Below are positions 28,756 through 38,300 of a DNA stretch of 64,000 nt, in pieces. The stretch's first letter is position 1, and every line of letters begins with the position of its first letter. The position numbers were made by a program, and so were the translations under genes. This stretch comes from Candidatus Zipacnadum vermilionense (lineage in GTDB: Bacteria; Armatimonadota; Zipacnadia; Zipacnadales; Zipacnadaceae). The stretch is taken from assembly GCA_029821755.1 (NCBI GenBank), contig JALGSV010000008.1:40411-104410 (forward strand), read 5' to 3'. The notes under the pieces were generated by a model, which saw nothing but the letters and a program-made list of their open reading frames with translations, had not been told where the DNA came from and did no database searches.

Positions 28756-29880
28756 CTATCTCAGCCTCCGCCAGGCGCGCTCGCAGGCCAGCAGATTCTC
28801 GGTCGGCCAATCGTGGCGCAGGCCCACTCCTGGTCCCAGGATGAAGCCCTCTCGACCGCAGTCGGCGAAGGCCCTTTCCACCGCCCGCTCCACTTGCTCC
28901 GGCGTCCCCCGCCCCAGATGCAGCGGCCCGCTGATCCCGCCCCACAGCGCCTTACTCGGCAAGCGCCGGCGAATCTCGCGCTGGTCCTGGGCGCTGGTAG
29001 CCGGGTCCCCCCCCAGCAGGCAGTCGAAGGCCACGCTGTCCAGTTCGCCCAGCAGTGGCGTGATCCCGGAATCCATCTGGTAGATGACCGGCGCTCCGGC
29101 CTCGTGGGCCAGCGCCACCTCCCGCAGCAGCGGCGGCTTCGCCAGTTGGGCGTAGAGGGTTGGGCTCCAGAAGTCGGTGGACTCGTACCATCCCCGCCGC
29201 AGGACCGCGTCAACGCCCAGCTCGAGCGCGAGCGCGAGCCGCTCCTGGAACGCCGCGTTGATGGGCGCGAGCAGGTCACACACGAAGTCCGGCTCTAGCA
29301 CCGCCCGCATCACAATCTCCTGGGGCCGGAAGAGCCATATCAGCCAGTCCAGACCGGCGGGCACCCCGGCCACCACCGGCACCTCAAACTCCTCCGCCAG
29401 CGCCCGCGCCTCCCCATGAGCCACCACCATCTGCTCCTGGTCGGCCTCGCTTTCGAGCGGGAAGAGGTACGGCAGCGCGGCGAGGTCCTCCCGCGTCTTG
29501 AAGGGAGGTTCCAGGTAGCGCGAGGGCCGGAAGTCGTCCCCCAGGGGGTACATGGTCGGCAACTCCCCCAGCCAATCCTCCGTTGCCCACAGCCGCTCCT
29601 CCAGGTCCCCCGCTGGGGTGTGCCACCACTGGACGAAGACTCTCCGGCCCTCGCGCTCCTCGAAGCGCGTCTCGGCTCTCACTTCCGGGGCGGGCGTGAG
29701 GAGAGCCGGGAGTTGGACATAGGTGTCCCAACCGCGCTCCCGGTACCAGGCCAGGCGCTCGCGCTCGGTGGTCCAGTTCGCCAGGGGGTGCCGGGGCTGA
29801 TCCCAAAAGCTCAGCACCAGCGGCACGTAGTCTACTTCTTGGCAGCGCCACGCCGCCAGCAGTCGCTCCCGTGTGGTCAT
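28756..29880 (-). CDS. uroporphyrinogen-III decarboxylase-like (URO-D superfamily) protein
   Basis: [61 protein letters not shown]. Confidence 0.8.
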
Positions 29881-29904
29881 GGTACGTTTGCCCCCTTCTC
29901 CCCG

Positions 29905-30007
29905 GTTCGGCCTTCGGTCAGTGGCGCCCCCAGGAAACGAAATCGCCTGGCCGAACGCCGAAGCTACTCGCATCATGGTGGCATAGGAAGCGAGGAAAGT
30001 AAAGTCG
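29905..30007 (-). repeat. copy 2 of duplicated promoter/leader element (upstream of URO-D-like gene)
   Basis: see copy 1; inverted-repeat arms GTTCGGCC/GGCCGAAC. Confidence 0.65.
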
Positions 30008-30288: not shown

Positions 30289-32034
30289 ATGGCGACTGCA
30301 TACCTCGGCCGGCCTTGCTGCAACTTCCAGTTCATGGACGTGGAGGTTCTCGTCGACCCGCGCGACGGCCTTGAGAAGGCCGTGTTGGGCAACTTCGCCT
30401 CCGGTGGCGTGGGCACGATCATCTTCGTAGACCCCCGCACCGGGGCCGAGGAGTCTCTCGACCTCCCCGGCGACAACGGCCCCGAAGGACTTCTCAACCT
30501 CGACAACCGCCGCCTGCTGGTAGCCTGCAGCGAGACCTACGGCTATCTGCACTCCCTCGACCTGACCACCCGCACCTGGGCCGAGCCGCTTCGGGTAGAG
30601 AGCGAAACCTACATCTGGAACCTCTGCCGCGCCTCCGACGGCCTTGTCTACGGCGGCACCTACCCCGGCTGCAAGCTACTGCGCTACGACCCGGAGCGGC
30701 ACGTGCTGGAGGACCTCGGTCACGTCTCCGACGACCCGGGGAACATGTACAGCCGCAACGTCTACGACGCAGCCGTGGGTTACGTACTCTTGGACTGCGG
30801 CATGGTCACTAGCGAAGTCATCGCCTACGACGTGGCCACCGGCGAGCGGTGCCACGTCGGCCCCCCCGGCGCGCAGGTCCGCGAGGTCACGGCCGACTAC
30901 GTCTGTCTTACCACCGGAAGCGGCGTCGAGTTCTACGCCCCGGGCACCTGGGAGCCGCTCCCCGACCTCTCCGACCGCCTTTCCCCGCCGCTGGAGGAGC
31001 CCTTCTCCCGCACCGGCCACGTCGCCTGGCTGAGCGACGGCGGCCTGGTGGGGGTACGCGGGCAGGACCTGGCGTACCGTCCTGCGGGCGAGTCGTCCGT
31101 CCGGCTTATCCCCCTCGACGCTCCCCGCCCGGCCACCCGCATCCACGAACTCGTCCAGGACGACCGGGGCGTGCTCTGGGGCGCCAGCGCCTTCGGCCAG
31201 ACCATCTTCTCCCATGATCCGGCCACCGGCGAGACGTGGAACTCCGGAGCAGTCTGCGACAACCCCGGCGAGGTCTATGGCATGGTCTGGGTCGACGAAC
31301 GGCTCTTCCTCTCCTCCTACTGTCAGGGAGACCACGTGGTCTACGATCCCTCCCTCCCCTGGGACCAGGTCAACAACCTCAACCCCCGCACGCTGGAAAG
31401 TGTCGCCCCGGCGCTGATCCGCCCCCTGGGGTGCAGCGTGCTCGGCCCCGACGGCGGCGTGTGGACCGGCTGGGGCGCCGCCTACGGCGTTTACGGCGGC
31501 GGTCTTTCTCGCGTGGACCCGGTGACGCTGCAGGTCAGGTCGTGGTACGACCCCGTCCCCGGCCAGGCCATCGGCCACCTGGCGACGGACGACCGCTACC
31601 TCTACCTGGCCACCGCCTCCTTCGCCAGCGGCCTCCCGCCGCTGCAGGAGCCCCTGCACTTCGCTGTCTGGGACCCCGCCGGTCAAGTGGTGGACGACGT
31701 CACCCTCAGCGAGGGCGAACACCCCGGCTCGCTGGCCGCAGTAGGCGGCAAGGTCCTGCTGCTCAGGCTCGACCGCCCGGAGATCCGCGTCTACGATCCC
31801 CAGGCGCTGTACTTCGAGGACTCGATCCCCCTCCCGGAGCCCTGCAGCAGCCTAATCGCGCTCGATCCGGGCAGGGCCTTGGCTTTCTCCGCGACGCGCC
31901 GCTTCCTGGTAACGATGCCCGGCGGGACCGTGGAGGACATAGGCGACATGCCGGGGAACGCCTCCGCGGTGGCGCTAGGGCGCGAGGGAGAGTTGTACGT
32001 GGCGGTGGGGGCGGATCTCTATCGAGTGGAGTGA
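30289..32034 (+). CDS. cytoplasmic beta-propeller protein
   Basis: repeated ..LLVACSETYGYLHSLDLTTRTW.. blade-like segments; no signal peptide. Confidence 0.7.
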   Translation: MATAYLGRPCCNFQFMDVEVLVDPRDGLEKAVLGNFASGGVGTIIFVDPRTGAEESLDLPGDNGPEGLLNLDNRRLLVACSETYGYLHSLDLTTRTWAEPLRVESETYIWNLCRASDGLVYGGTYPGCKLLRYDPERHVLEDLGHVSDDPGNMYSRNVYDAAVGYVLLDCGMVTSEVIAYDVATGERCHVGPPGAQVREVTADYVCLTTGSGVEFYAPGTWEPLPDLSDRLSPPLEEPFSRTGHVAWLSDGGLVGVRGQDLAYRPAGESSVRLIPLDAPRPATRIHELVQDDRGVLWGASAFGQTIFSHDPATGETWNSGAVCDNPGEVYGMVWVDERLFLSSYCQGDHVVYDPSLPWDQVNNLNPRTLESVAPALIRPLGCSVLGPDGGVWTGWGAAYGVYGGGLSRVDPVTLQVRSWYDPVPGQAIGHLATDDRYLYLATASFASGLPPLQEPLHFAVWDPAGQVVDDVTLSEGEHPGSLAAVGGKVLLLRLDRPEIRVYDPQALYFEDSIPLPEPCSSLIALDPGRALAFSATRRFLVTMPGGTVEDIGDMPGNASAVALGREGELYVAVGADLYRVE

Positions 32035-32042
32035 ACTGTAGC

Positions 32043-34562
32043 ATGCTTCAGGCCGTAAGACTATCGTTGCCACACCACGCGACACCGGGGATGGAACGCC
32101 TGGCCTCCCTCTTCCGCCGCCTCGTGGCCGAACGTTCCGGCGTGCCGGTCGAGAGGGGCGCTCCCGTGCCCAACTCCCTCACCGTCTCCCTCGCCCTCGA
32201 CCCCTCCCTCCCCGCGGAGGGCTACCGCCTCGCGCAGGAGCCGGGCGTCGTACGGATCACCGGAACCGACGAGCGCGGCCTGCGCTACGGGATGGGCCGG
32301 CTTCTCCATGAGGCCTCCTACGGGGAGGGCACCTTCACCCCCGGGCCCTGCAGCGGCACCTCCGCCCCCGATTGCCCCGTGCGTGGCATGTACCTGGCCT
32401 TCAACTTCAACAACTGGTACGTCGCCGCCCCGCGGGAGGAGGTCGCCCGCTACCTGGAGGAGCTTTCCCTCTGGGGGATCAACGCCATCATCCTGGGCTT
32501 CCTGGTGCCCGACCCGAAGGACACGGAGGCCACCGAGCGCCGCCGCGAGGACTACCGGCAGTTCCTCCGCCTCGCCAAGGACGCCGGCATGAGTGTCGGT
32601 TTCCTCGGCTCAGTCAACTGCGGCTTCCCCGATCCCCCGATGGAGGCCCTGGCCACCGACTTCCCCGACACCACCCCCCCCCGCCGTGGTCTGGCCGGCG
32701 TCCGCGTCTGCCCCAGCCACCCCGTCGGCCGCGAGTACCTGCGCCGCACCCTCGACTCCTTCCTGGTAGGCTATGAGGACCTCGGCCTGGACTATGTCGC
32801 CGCCTTCCCCTACGATGCCGGCGGCTGCGGCTGCGAGCAATGCTGGCCCTGGGGCGCACGGGGGTACCTGGAGATCAGCCGCGACTTCTCCGCTCTCGCC
32901 AAGGCCCGCTACCCGGAGTGCAAGTTCGTCCTGGCCACCTGGTGCTTCGACGTGCGCGAGGAGTCCGACGGCGAGTACGAGGGCCTGCACGCCGTACTGG
33001 AACAAGACGCCAGTTGGGTGGACTACCTCATGGTCGACTCCCACTTCGACTTCCCCTCGTGGCCGCTGGAGCACGGCGCGCCGGGCGGCGTGCCCCTGGT
33101 CAACTTCGCGGAGATAACCATGTGGGGCCGCTATCCCTGGGGTGGATCGGGGGCTAATCCCCTCCCCGCCCGCTTTGAGCGCCTCTGGGGCCAGGCCAGC
33201 CACCTCCTCCACGGCGGCTTCCCCTATTCAGAAGGCATTTTCGAGGATATCAACAAGGCCGTCGTCGCGCGCCTGTATTGGCACAAGCAGGCCAGCGCCG
33301 AGCAGGCGGTCCGCGAGTACGTGTCCTTTGAGTTCGGCCCGCAGGTGGTGGAGGAGGTCACCGAGGCCATCTACCTCCTGGAGAGCACCTACCCACTGGA
33401 GACCCGGACGCGGGAAGACGTCGAGCGGGCCTGGGCGTTACTGCAGGAGGCTGACGCTCAACTGACCCCACGCGCTCGCGCTTCCTGGCGCTGGCGCATT
33501 CTCTACCTGCGCGGGATGATCGACGCCGAGTTGCTGCACAACGACGGAAAGCCTACCGACGCCTGCAACGAGGCCTACGAGGAGCTGATCCGTATCTACC
33601 ACGCCGAGGAAGCCGATGGTCCAGTCACCCCCAAGGGCCCAAGCTGGTACGCCCGCCAGATCCAAGAAGAGCCGCCCCCGCCGGGGGCCGACCTACCATC
33701 GCCCTTAACCTGCGACTGGCACCTTCATTCCGAGCATTCGTGCGACGGCGCCTGCATGAAGGTGGCCGATCTGCCCGCCTTGGCGGCGGCGCGCGGAATC
33801 GTGGATTTCGGCCTCACCGACCACCTCCACACTCCCTACAACCTGCCGGACCTGCAGGCCTCCCGCCGTGCCTACCTGGCGACCGACCCCTCGCCTCGCT
33901 TCCACTTCGGCGTCGAGGCCAGCGTCGTCTCGCAGTGGGAACTGGACGAGCTGGCGCGCGGCGGCCACGACAATCCGGTCTACGGCCTGCGCCAGGGCGG
34001 CCCGCCCGGCGCCGCCCCGGCCCTCGGGATCACCGCCGAGGAGTTGGCCTCCCTGGGCGTGGAGTACGTCGTCGCCGGAGTGCACTGGCCGCTGTACGTA
34101 CCCTTCGAGCGCGAAGCGATCATCCGCGACTATCATCGCCAGAACATGTTCCTGGCCACCCACCCCTTGGTGACCATCATCGCCCACCCCTGGTGGTGGA
34201 TGGGCCACTGGCAGAGCGCCGACGGCATGTACCGCGCCGAGCCGTGGTTTGACCGCTTCGATGTCATCCCGCAGTCCATGCACGACGAGTTCGCGGCTGC
34301 CGCGATCCAGCACGGCAAAGCGGTCGAGATCAACCTCAACGCCTGCCTGTTCAACCCGAGCTACCCGGCGCGCTTCGGCCACGAGTACCTGGACTACCTG
34401 GCCGGGCTGCAGGCGTGCGGCGTGACCTTCTCGCTCGCCTCGGACAACCACTCGGCGACCTACACCCCACCCTTCGACCAGGCGGCCGAGCGCCTCGCAG
34501 CGGCGGGCATTCACGACCGTGACCTATGGCGCCTCCCGCCCCGGGCCGGGGCCGACGACTAA
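32043..34562 (+). CDS. fusion: glycosidase-like (GH20/alpha-glucuronidase-like) N-terminal region plus C-terminal PHP-domain phosphoesterase
   Basis: GTDERGLRYGMGRLLHE, PVRGMYLAFNFNNWYVAAPREEVARYLEELSLWGINAI, FPYDAGGCGCEQC; then CDWHLHSEHSCDGACMKV, FGLTDHLHTPYN, FGVEASV, HPWWW, SDNHS. Confidence 0.8.
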   Translation: MLQAVRLSLPHHATPGMERLASLFRRLVAERSGVPVERGAPVPNSLTVSLALDPSLPAEGYRLAQEPGVVRITGTDERGLRYGMGRLLHEASYGEGTFTPGPCSGTSAPDCPVRGMYLAFNFNNWYVAAPREEVARYLEELSLWGINAIILGFLVPDPKDTEATERRREDYRQFLRLAKDAGMSVGFLGSVNCGFPDPPMEALATDFPDTTPPRRGLAGVRVCPSHPVGREYLRRTLDSFLVGYEDLGLDYVAAFPYDAGGCGCEQCWPWGARGYLEISRDFSALAKARYPECKFVLATWCFDVREESDGEYEGLHAVLEQDASWVDYLMVDSHFDFPSWPLEHGAPGGVPLVNFAEITMWGRYPWGGSGANPLPARFERLWGQASHLLHGGFPYSEGIFEDINKAVVARLYWHKQASAEQAVREYVSFEFGPQVVEEVTEAIYLLESTYPLETRTREDVERAWALLQEADAQLTPRARASWRWRILYLRGMIDAELLHNDGKPTDACNEAYEELIRIYHAEEADGPVTPKGPSWYARQIQEEPPPPGADLPSPLTCDWHLHSEHSCDGACMKVADLPALAAARGIVDFGLTDHLHTPYNLPDLQASRRAYLATDPSPRFHFGVEASVVSQWELDELARGGHDNPVYGLRQGGPPGAAPALGITAEELASLGVEYVVAGVHWPLYVPFEREAIIRDYHRQNMFLATHPLVTIIAHPWWWMGHWQSADGMYRAEPWFDRFDVIPQSMHDEFAAAAIQHGKAVEINLNACLFNPSYPARFGHEYLDYLAGLQACGVTFSLASDNHSATYTPPFDQAAERLAAAGIHDRDLWRLPPRAGADD

Positions 34563-34580
34563 CGATGAGGAGGAATACTC

Positions 34581-35942
34581 ATGTCCAAGACCAAGCTCCA
34601 ACAGCAACTCGCCCTGCAGGGCGGCATGAAAGCGGTTAGCGGGATTGAGGGCAAAGGCAAGCCCAAGATCGGCATGGCCGAGTTCATGTCCCTCTCCGAG
34701 CGTTTCGGGTTCTCCAAGGAGGCGCTCCGCCGGATCCGCGAGGCGGTGAGCGAGCAGGACCTGCCCGAAGGCGGTCCCTTCCTCGCCCACTTTTACTCCG
34801 GCCTCACGGAGTCCAAGATCCGGGCCTTCGAGCGCGTCGCGCGGGAGACGTTCGGCGTCAAGTACGCGGTGGCGGTCAGCTCCGGCACCGCCGCCCTGCA
34901 TGCCGCCTTCGTCGCCGCCGGGGTCGGGCCGGGGACGGAGGTCGTCTGCCCCGCGATCGGCTTCTACGCCACCGCCGCGGCCGTCGTCATGGCCCGCGGC
35001 GTGCCCGTCTTCTGCGATGTGGACCTCTCCCTGGGCATGGACCCCGCGGCGCTGGAGAAGGCGATCACCCCACGCACCGTCGCTATCGCCCCCACTCATG
35101 TGATGGGCAGTGTCTGCGACATGTCCGCGATCATGAAGGTCGCGCGCAAGCATAAGCTCAAGGTCGTCGAGGACTGCGCCCAGTCTACCGGCGGCCAGTT
35201 CCGCGGCAAGTACGTCGGCACTATCGGCGACCTGGGCTGCTTCTCCATCTCCGCCTACAAGATCATCGGCGGCGGCGAAGGTGGGCTGGTGCTAACCAAC
35301 AGCAAGCGCCTGTACGAGCGTACCTGCTGTCTCATGGAGGGCGGCGGCTTATGGCGGCCGTCCCGCTTCGCCCCGCCGCGCTACCGCGGGGAGCTGTTTG
35401 TCGGTACCAACTACCGCATGTCCGAGCTGGAGGCCGCCGTCGATGTGGTCCAGCTCGGCAAGCTGCCCGCCATCGTGAAGCGCTTCCACCAGGTCAAGCA
35501 GCGGATCGTCGCCGCTCTGCAGCCCTTCCGCGAGATCACCTGGCAGAAGGCGAACGACCCGGAGGGGGAAATCGGCTACATGCTGCGGTTCTTCCCCGAG
35601 ACCACGGCGCTGGGGCGCAAGATCGAGACGGCGCTGAACGCGGAGGGCGTCGCCTGCGGCCTGCGGGGCGAGGGCGCCGCGCCCGACTGGCACATGTCGG
35701 CCTACATGTTCCCGCTGATCCTGCAGGCGGGCGGCCCCGAGACCAGCTGCCCCTTCGACTGCCCGCGCTACCTGGAGGCCGGCGGCGCACCCCAGTACAA
35801 ACCCGGCGACGTCCCGGTAGCCGAGGACCTCTTCAACCGGGCGATCTCGATCAACCTCAACCAGTGGTACACGGCCCGCGACTGCCGCAACATCGCCAAG
35901 GCGATCAATAAGGTGCTGGGAGTATATTGCACGCCCGCCTAG
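34581..35942 (+). CDS. DegT/DnrJ/EryC1/StrS family PLP aminotransferase
   Basis: AVSSGTAALHAAFVAAGVGPGTEV, EDCAQSTGG, SISAYKIIGGGEGG (PLP Lys). Confidence 0.92.
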   Translation: MSKTKLQQQLALQGGMKAVSGIEGKGKPKIGMAEFMSLSERFGFSKEALRRIREAVSEQDLPEGGPFLAHFYSGLTESKIRAFERVARETFGVKYAVAVSSGTAALHAAFVAAGVGPGTEVVCPAIGFYATAAAVVMARGVPVFCDVDLSLGMDPAALEKAITPRTVAIAPTHVMGSVCDMSAIMKVARKHKLKVVEDCAQSTGGQFRGKYVGTIGDLGCFSISAYKIIGGGEGGLVLTNSKRLYERTCCLMEGGGLWRPSRFAPPRYRGELFVGTNYRMSELEAAVDVVQLGKLPAIVKRFHQVKQRIVAALQPFREITWQKANDPEGEIGYMLRFFPETTALGRKIETALNAEGVACGLRGEGAAPDWHMSAYMFPLILQAGGPETSCPFDCPRYLEAGGAPQYKPGDVPVAEDLFNRAISINLNQWYTARDCRNIAKAINKVLGVYCTPA

Positions 35943-35971: not shown

Positions 35972-36111
35972 CGTAGGGGCGAATGCTCCGCGAGGTCGTA
36001 TCCCGCGGAGCATCCGCCCTCGCATGCCACAGGCCGTGTGAATATTCAGGTTCTCGATGATCGCGGGCGGATATTGCCGAGCGAGTACGCTCGCCAGTAT
36101 CCGCCCCTACG
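35972..36111. repeat. compound nested inverted repeat
   Basis: outer arms CGTAGGGGCG (35972-35981)/CGCCCCTACG (36102-36111) enclosing two further hairpins. Confidence 0.75.
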
Positions 36112-36155
36112 AAGCCGCCAGGCTTTTCGTACACGCACTTAGAGGAGAGGTCGCC

Positions 36156-38300
36156 TTGCCCACTCTCGACCACCAGGACAACTTCAACGTCCTCTCCACT
36201 CCCTACCCGCAGATGATGCGTAACTACCTGCAGCGGGTGACGGAGGAGGCCCTGGCCATCTGCTCGCCGCCGCCGACGCTTGACGCATGGCAGGCGCAAC
36301 GCCCCGCCCTGCGCGCCGCTCTCGCCGCCTGCTTCGGGGACCTCCCCGCCGAACGCTGCGACCTGGAGCCCACCCTCACCGGCGTCCTGTCCCGCGATGG
36401 CTACCGCGTGGAGCAGGTCCGCCTGCAGACCCGCCCCGGCTGGTTTGCGGGGGTGAACGTCTACCTGCCCGAGGAGCAGCAGGACCGCGTCCCCGCCGTG
36501 CTCATGCCTCTCGGCCATTTCCCCTGGGGTCGGCGCTCCCACGAGGTGCAGATCGCTTGCGCTACTCTGGCCCGGCGGGGCTACGTGGCCTTGACTCTCG
36601 ACATGCCCGGCTACGGCGATCGCGCCGCGGTGGGCAGCCATTCCCCCACGACCTACTTTCCCCTGCTGACCGTCGGGCTCTCGCTGGGCGGCCTGCAGCT
36701 TTGGGACAACATGCGCTGTCTGGACTACCTCTGCTCCCGCCCCGAGGTGGACCCCACCCGCCTGGGCTGCACCGGCGCTTCCGGCGGCGGCTCCCAGACC
36801 ATGTACCTCACGGCCCTCGACGACCGCATCGCCGCGGCGGTGCCCACCGTCTTCATCGGCTCGGCCCGGCATTACCCGGAGCACGGCTGCTGCGTGTGCG
36901 AGGCGGCGCGCGGGGTGGTGCAGGTCGGCGACGACTGGCGCCTGCTCTCCCTGGTCGCGCCCCGCCCCGTCTTGGTAGTAAACGCCACCCACGACCCCCT
37001 CTTTCCTATCTGGTACGGCCACCTGGCCATGGACTCCCTCCGCCACGTTTACCGCCTGTTTGACCGAGAGGAAGCCGTGGCCTTCGCCGAGGTCTACCGC
37101 GACCACGGCTACTACCAGAGCGCCCGCCTGGCCGGCTACGCCTGGTTCGACCGCTGGCTCCAGGGCGTTCCCACCGACCCTCGCGAGATAGTCGAGGCCC
37201 CCGTCTGGACCGAGCCGGAAGACGGCGATACCCTATTCGTGGAGGGCGTGGACCGGAGCGTCACCATCCCCCAGATGATTGCCCACCGCGCCCAGGAGTT
37301 GCTGCCCTCACGCTCCGCCGACCCCGCTATCGCCCGCGACCGCCTGCTCCAGCGCTGCCTGGGCGGGCTCCCCGAGGCGCCTGCAGGGCGCGGGCCACGT
37401 ACCGCACCCTTCCCGGATGAGGACGCGCCGGCCGGGGCGGGACACGCTGCCCCCGCTGCAGACCAGTTTCCCCCTCCCTTTAGGGAGGGGGGTAGGGGGG
37501 TAGGGCAGGTCTCCGTGGAGACCATCAACCGCAGGGATCACACCGTCGAGAAGCTCGCCCTCCGCACGGAGCCGGACATCCTCGTACCTGCTCTCCTGCT
37601 CAAGCCGGTCCCCGCGCCGCTTCGGAGCGGGGACCGGCAGCCCTCCCTGGCCCCGGCGCGCTTGCCGGTCTGCCTCTACCTACACGAGAGGGGCAAACAG
37701 GTCGCGACGCACAACCGGGAGGTCGGGGAGATGTTGCGGGCGGGGTGGGCGGTCTGCGCGGTGGACGTGCGCGGCAGCGGCGAGACCGGCCCGCCTGGCT
37801 GCGGCGGTCTGGTGCAGAAAGCCCTGGTCCTGGGCCGGACACTGGCCGCGCTACAGGTCTTCGACCTCTTGCGCACCGCCGACTACCTACAGGCCCGGGC
37901 GGACCTGGACGCAACTCGTCTCGCTATTTGGGGGGAGGGGTGCTGCGCCTTCCTGGCCCTGCTGGCGGCGGCTCTCGACGAGCGCTTCACCCACACCTGC
38001 GGCTACCGCCTGCTCACCTCCTACCTACACGATAGCCCCAGCCTGCAGGACCCGCTGCACTACTTGCCGGACGTAATTCGCGAGGTAGGCGATATTTGCG
38101 ACCTTGCCGCCCTCGTCGCCCCCCGCACCCTGGTGATCGCCGCACCGCGCAACGCCTCCCTGGAGCCGGCGAACGCCGCGGAGAGCTTCCGCCGCACGGT
38201 ACAGGCCTACGGCGCCGACGGCCCGCTGACGCTGGTGGAGGAGGGATACGAGGAGATGCTGGCGGCGTGGTTGGGGTGTCTGGCGCCAGCTTGCAGGTAG
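36156..38300 (+). CDS. tandem alpha/beta-hydrolase (acetylxylan-esterase-like), TTG start
   Basis: AGAGGAGAGG upstream of TTG; GCTGASGGGSQT nucleophile elbow in domain 1; second hydrolase-like domain from about 37.5 kb; track start 36057 lies in the repeat. Confidence 0.7.
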   Translation: MPTLDHQDNFNVLSTPYPQMMRNYLQRVTEEALAICSPPPTLDAWQAQRPALRAALAACFGDLPAERCDLEPTLTGVLSRDGYRVEQVRLQTRPGWFAGVNVYLPEEQQDRVPAVLMPLGHFPWGRRSHEVQIACATLARRGYVALTLDMPGYGDRAAVGSHSPTTYFPLLTVGLSLGGLQLWDNMRCLDYLCSRPEVDPTRLGCTGASGGGSQTMYLTALDDRIAAAVPTVFIGSARHYPEHGCCVCEAARGVVQVGDDWRLLSLVAPRPVLVVNATHDPLFPIWYGHLAMDSLRHVYRLFDREEAVAFAEVYRDHGYYQSARLAGYAWFDRWLQGVPTDPREIVEAPVWTEPEDGDTLFVEGVDRSVTIPQMIAHRAQELLPSRSADPAIARDRLLQRCLGGLPEAPAGRGPRTAPFPDEDAPAGAGHAAPAADQFPPPFREGGRGVGQVSVETINRRDHTVEKLALRTEPDILVPALLLKPVPAPLRSGDRQPSLAPARLPVCLYLHERGKQVATHNREVGEMLRAGWAVCAVDVRGSGETGPPGCGGLVQKALVLGRTLAALQVFDLLRTADYLQARADLDATRLAIWGEGCCAFLALLAAALDERFTHTCGYRLLTSYLHDSPSLQDPLHYLPDVIREVGDICDLAALVAPRTLVIAAPRNASLEPANAAESFRRTVQAYGADGPLTLVEEGYEEMLAAWLGCLAPACR
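37471..37490. repeat. C-rich/G-rich hairpin of intergenic type inside CDS
   Basis: CCCCTCCCT-TT-AGGGAGGGG; translated FPPPFREGGRGVG. Confidence 0.7.

Follow-up and report, generated by a model that had tools for sequence, protein, structure and literature searches.

The three-gene cluster

The window, by which we mean the whole 64,000-nucleotide stretch that was analyzed, comes from a 104-kb contig in an Armatimonadota MAG (4.39 Mb, 95% complete). It includes three open reading frames on the forward strand (30289-32034, 32043-34562 and 34581-35942), which are separated by spacers of 8 and 18 bp, as an initial annotation of this DNA had described, and code for products of 581, 839 (from the ATG at 32043) and 453 aa. 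The cluster contains no Ns or internal stops, and all the motifs quoted in that annotation are present in it. It is the spacing alone that suggests an operon. The following features can be distinguished:

30289..32034, + strand: beta-propeller-like protein of 581 aa without signal peptide (ORF; weak DUF6923/Reg_prop)
32043..33671, + strand: glycosidase-like half of the middle protein, residues 1-543, with a GH20b-like N-domain, a TIM barrel with GCGCEQC and a C-terminal helical domain (Pfam, alignment, AF2)
32814..32843, + strand: D-AGGCGCEQC segment, D258 to C267, a candidate catalytic or metal site (Asp and Cys cluster invariant in homologs)
33672..33713, + strand: proline-rich junction PPPPGADLPSPLTC, residues 544-557 (PPPPGA and LTCDWH matches in homologs)
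33714..34559, + strand: predicted PHP metallo-phosphoesterase half, residues 558-839 (23-member alignment, YcdX profile, AF2 fold)
34581..35942, + strand: DegT/DnrJ/EryC1/StrS-type PLP aminotransferase of 453 aa (Pfam, 4e-73)

A hydropathy scan found no N-terminal hydrophobic stretch in any of the three proteins, their maximum KD over 14 aa being 1.18, 0.41 and 0.64, as against 2.4-3.2 for clearly secreted genes of the window. This agrees with the earlier remark that obvious signal peptides are missing, and the fusion protein is predicted to be cytoplasmic.

The first gene recovers only weak DUF6923/Reg_prop repeats in Pfam, and its homologs (30-36% identity) occur in 61 of 292 Armatimonadota genomes. 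The third matches the Pfam DegT_DnrJ_EryC1 model with an E-value of 4e-73. The closest solved structure by sequence is 5k8b, an 8-amino-3,8-dideoxy-manno-octulosonate transaminase (8e-56), with which the PLP-lysine region SAYKIIGGGEGG could be aligned, placing the protein in this family. Both have the PLP fold and the K-x-x-GGGEGG region in common, whereas the window's enzyme is distinguished by a long C-terminal insert and belongs to its own subfamily in Armatimonadota. A role in anti-phage defense was considered and set aside, the only matches being trivial PLP-fold ones for DegT. Downstream of the aminotransferase (36057-38300) lies a gene for a two-part alpha/beta-hydrolase (glucuronyl/acetyl-xylan esterase-like), likewise without a signal peptide, whose relatives adjoin a glycosidase-like gene in locus L071 and a PHP gene in locus L087.

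The glycosidase-like half

The N-terminal region of the middle protein contains a Pfam Glyco_hydro_20b domain (PF02838) at residues 16-85 (6e-7, 30.7 bits, above the cut-off of 26.1), and a profile match to GH20 hexosaminidases was obtained for this half at 8.9e-6. The two halves were modeled separately; a combined alignment (A1) misaligned the glycosidase-like rows, giving 28% in place of the true identity of 58%, and a phmmer search of the PDB with the whole 839-aa protein returned no match. The AF2 model of the glycosidase-like half, which is of moderate quality (pLDDT 70, pTM 0.74), displays the mixed alpha/beta N-domain and TIM barrel of the GH20/GH67/GH84/GH138 fold superfamily, and Foldseek recovered GH20, GH84, GH67 and GH138 folds with it (E about 1e-10 to 1e-9, TM about 0.4-0.5). 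The GH20b-like N-domain and, by Foldseek, the overall fold are shared with GH20, GH67, GH84 and DUF4838 proteins; identity to solved structures is about 13%.

The barrel itself is claimed by no Pfam catalytic model. The GH20 catalytic domain (PF00728) was detected neither in the fusion at E<=0.1 nor in 20 homologs at 0.01, and no GH67 middle or C domain was found; the GH67N domain gave a weak match (0.076 in the fusion, at best 4e-4 in the homologs), being touched by 5/20 members of the family, with DUF4838 touched by 1/20. Because the GH20 and GH67 catalytic-domain models fail to match, the GH20/alpha-glucuronidase-like label of the initial annotation, which the GH20b domain and the fold do uphold, is valid at the superfamily level only. 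An alignment of 20 members of the family has 60 invariant columns, including D258, E311, E357, E397 and the cysteines C262, C264 and C267, and across the segment D258, G260-C262, C264 and C267 are identical in 20/20 homologs. This family has a PYD-GGCGCxxC motif where GH20 enzymes have their Asp-Glu catalytic pair, which is absent from the PYDAGGCGC segment.

The PHP half

Nine presumed metal ligands can be assigned in the C-terminal half (H560, H562, D568, H594, E625, H681, H715, D801 and H803), all at positions that are invariant or at least 90% conserved among 23 sequences. Their motifs align with those of YcdX, with H715 lying outside that alignment and being placed by strand context. The Pfam PHP model reached residues 558-631 with 3.5e-4, which is below its cut-off, while the YcdX profile matched at 1.1e-9 and the AF2 model (pLDDT 88) resembled the histidinol-phosphate phosphatase 2yxo (E 2.5e-9) and YcdX 1m65 (E 4e-8); the assignment is therefore firmer by the YcdX profile and by fold than by Pfam. 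Both the nine-ligand motifs (HxH, D/H, H, E, H, H, DxH) and the barrel fold of the PHP superfamily are found, and the earlier description of this domain as complete-looking is borne out by the filled ligand positions and the modeled fold. Putative catalytic residues appear to be kept in both halves; in the model of the glycosidase-like half the loops around residues 356-397, which carry two candidate acids, are at pLDDT <50.

The PHP half has the beta/alpha barrel and the nine metal-ligand positions in common with YcdX and with histidinol-phosphate phosphatase (HisK; T. thermophilus HisPPase 2yxo). It differs from them in being only 18-19% identical, in a longer insert, in its sub-threshold Pfam match and in family-specific HRQ and HPWWW motifs; within its own family, identity across several phyla is 60-70%. 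No histidine-biosynthesis families were encountered among the tallied neighbors. Two other large proteins of about 1100 aa, L100 (3314-6661) and L008 (from the window's own genome), have a weak internal PHP domain and are otherwise blank in Pfam. As in the fusion, the PHP domain lies within a long polypeptide, but these proteins carry it mid-chain and have no detectable GH20b half; we take them to resemble the CehA/McbA metallohydrolases.

The junction

The middle gene is a single open frame of 839 codons, in which the glycosidase-like half (about residues 1-543) is followed by the proline-rich linker and the PHP domain (about 558-839), as the initial annotation had proposed. The PPPPGA of the junction corresponds to the C-terminal tail of stand-alone glycosidase-like homologs (..MPPPPGAM* in L041, and ..LPPGAHQGV* in L158 from the same genus), and the LTCDWH to the N-terminus of stand-alone PHP proteins, which start a few residues before DWHxHS; in the window the one passes directly into the other. 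The proline tail (PPPPGA or LPPGAxQGxV) typifies a clade of glycosidase-like proteins, seen in the window (33672-33692), L041 (7580-7611), L066, L067, L093 and L158, and is repeated once in L067 and L093.

That annotation had named a missed stop between two separate genes as the finding that would overturn it, and a sequencing or assembly error could in principle have fused adjacent genes in frame: the source is a MAG, and the junction falls in a C/G-rich run, with a stop in the +1 frame at about 33705. However, none of the codons ATG, GTG and TTG occurs in frame between residue 526 and M572, itself already past the HxH motif, so that a complete PHP half could be produced only within the fusion. 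A simple indel would have left the start codon of the PHP gene in place, and such an artefact is therefore unlikely; further, a natural C-terminus meets a natural N-terminus here, GC by codon position is nearly equal on either side and codon usage is unchanged. Given the continuous frame, the constant codon usage and the lack of a PHP start codon before HxH, a missed stop appears unlikely. We accordingly regard an artefact as very improbable and the fusion as almost certainly real.

Distribution and origin of the fusion

Close copies of the PHP and glycosidase-like proteins are found in 20/292 and 23/292 Armatimonadota genomes respectively, and only in the window's genome are both families in one frame, the fused copy being the sole member of its PHP family there. 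A second fusion was not recovered from the 292 Armatimonadota genomes, the 199 searched in the class of G298, seven further genomes, or a wider contig scan confined to relatives with short exact peptides in common. Among the genomes examined, all others that carry these widespread families encode the halves by separate genes. Within the same genus, the glycosidase-like gene occurs without its PHP counterpart in G291, and in G290 the two families are found on separate contigs. In the latter genome L076 (8123-9537) contains two tandem stand-alone PHP copies, the first with an in-frame stop and the second truncated where the contig ends.

In trees, both fused halves are nested among stand-alone proteins, so that the fusion is derived; a single other genome, JAKPKV, supplies the closest glycosidase-like relative (58% identity) as well as one of the closest PHP relatives (65%). 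A recent, lineage-specific fusion is the best reading. In the open-access papers searched, no description of a PHP-glycoside hydrolase fusion was found, which fits the earlier view that this architecture is not known as a described system: the folds are known, and the combination and both subfamilies appear to be uncharacterized.

Gene neighborhoods and co-occurrence

Neighborhoods were collected for 22 PHP, 18 glycosidase-like and 14 DegT loci, most of them with readable neighbors. No conserved partner is common to them, none of about 70 neighborhoods of relatives pairs the PHP domain, the glycosidase-like half or DegT with another of these, and the three-gene arrangement was found in no other genome, not even of the same genus. 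The stand-alone copies of either half and the DegT orthologs (60-75% identical) have unrelated neighbors, those of DegT being mixed. A propeller profile run against all the PHP, glycosidase-like and DegT loci found a propeller adjacent in one other genome only (G255), where in L079 (5625-8498) a homolog 27% identical to the window's protein is oriented divergently beside a stand-alone PHP gene. A URO-D gene lies next door in the window (28756-29976, - strand), and homologs of PHP, glycosidase-like and DegT genes have URO-D neighbors too, but it was rejected as a partner: the genome contains 77 URO-D/methyltransferase-family matches in 4.4 Mb, a large expansion that makes such adjacency background.

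With no conserved neighborhood, the 'operon' is a grouping of local extent, and conservation lends no support to an aminosugar pathway. The initial annotation had proposed that the propeller, the fusion and DegT make up a dedicated intracellular aminosugar or phosphosugar operon, and the tight spacing on one strand, the nearness of this DegT type to sugar aminotransferases and the propeller-PHP pair of G255 are in keeping with it, as is the joint presence of PHP and DegT (at least 45% identical) in 12 Armatimonadota genomes against 2.0 expected. This last count is confounded by kinship, though, and neither the mixed neighbors of DegT nor the failure of any other neighborhood, including those of the same genus, to unite the genes is what such an operon would predict; we consider it improbable.

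As the operon is not conserved, the idea of a pathway rests on the fusion and on the modest co-occurrence of its halves. Seven Armatimonadota genomes have both families against 1.4 expected (at the family level 8 against 3.7). In the class of G298, 4/7 genomes with a close PHP copy have the glycosidase-like family, as do 5/6 of the genomes with the PHP family outside Armatimonadota; among the other Armatimonadota genomes with PHP, 12/19 are without a close glycosidase-like homolog. These counts, uncorrected for kinship and genome size, lend no more than modest support to a functional link, and both phylogeny and the presence of large, carbohydrate-gene-rich genomes confound them.

Functional implications

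Being seen in one genome, a MAG, the fusion may be selectively neutral: a small deletion in one lineage could have joined halves that fold independently and serve unrelated processes, in which case it would hold no functional information. Its single occurrence in about 500 genomes, the frequent occurrence of each family without the other and the lack of conserved neighbors for either half are compatible with this. Against it stand the finding that the two families occur together more often than by chance in three separate samples, albeit with confounding, and the retention of the conserved residues in both halves despite considerable divergence, which would place the fusion product under selection. 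We regard a neutral accident as the less probable explanation, with a chance that is still appreciable.

On balance, we lean towards a lineage-specific bifunctional cytoplasmic hydrolase in which two reactions on a single small compound inside the cell, a phospho- or otherwise substituted glycoside, would be coupled. Under this bifunctional reading, a gene for a stand-alone glycosidase-like protein from the GH20/GH67/DUF4838-like superfamily would have lost its stop and become joined in frame to a stand-alone PHP gene, with essentially the whole length of both parent proteins retained. Putative active-site residues are conserved in both halves. We infer that both are active: the barrel half would act on a glycosidic bond, cleaving off a sugar, and the multinuclear metal center of the PHP half would hydrolyze a phosphate or similar ester. 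A glycoside that is phosphorylated or carries some other substituent is the probable substrate; phospho-glycosides in particular are a doubtful choice of substrate class, and that the halves share a pathway has about an even chance. The propeller and the aminotransferase, neighbors in this genome only, need not be part of its pathway. More speculatively still, the two widespread families, GGCGCxxC glycosidase-like and HPWWW PHP proteins, might catalyze successive reactions in a hitherto undescribed intracellular pathway for phosphorylated or substituted glycosides in Armatimonadota, Verrucomicrobiota, Lentisphaerota and others, with the present fusion as the clue connecting them.

For families in which no member has been characterized, a gene fusion is one of the better hints of a common function. 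If the halves cooperate, a conserved PHP family would be linked to a glycosidase-like family that the catalytic models of GH20 and GH67 do not cover, and both families could be tested with one purified protein.
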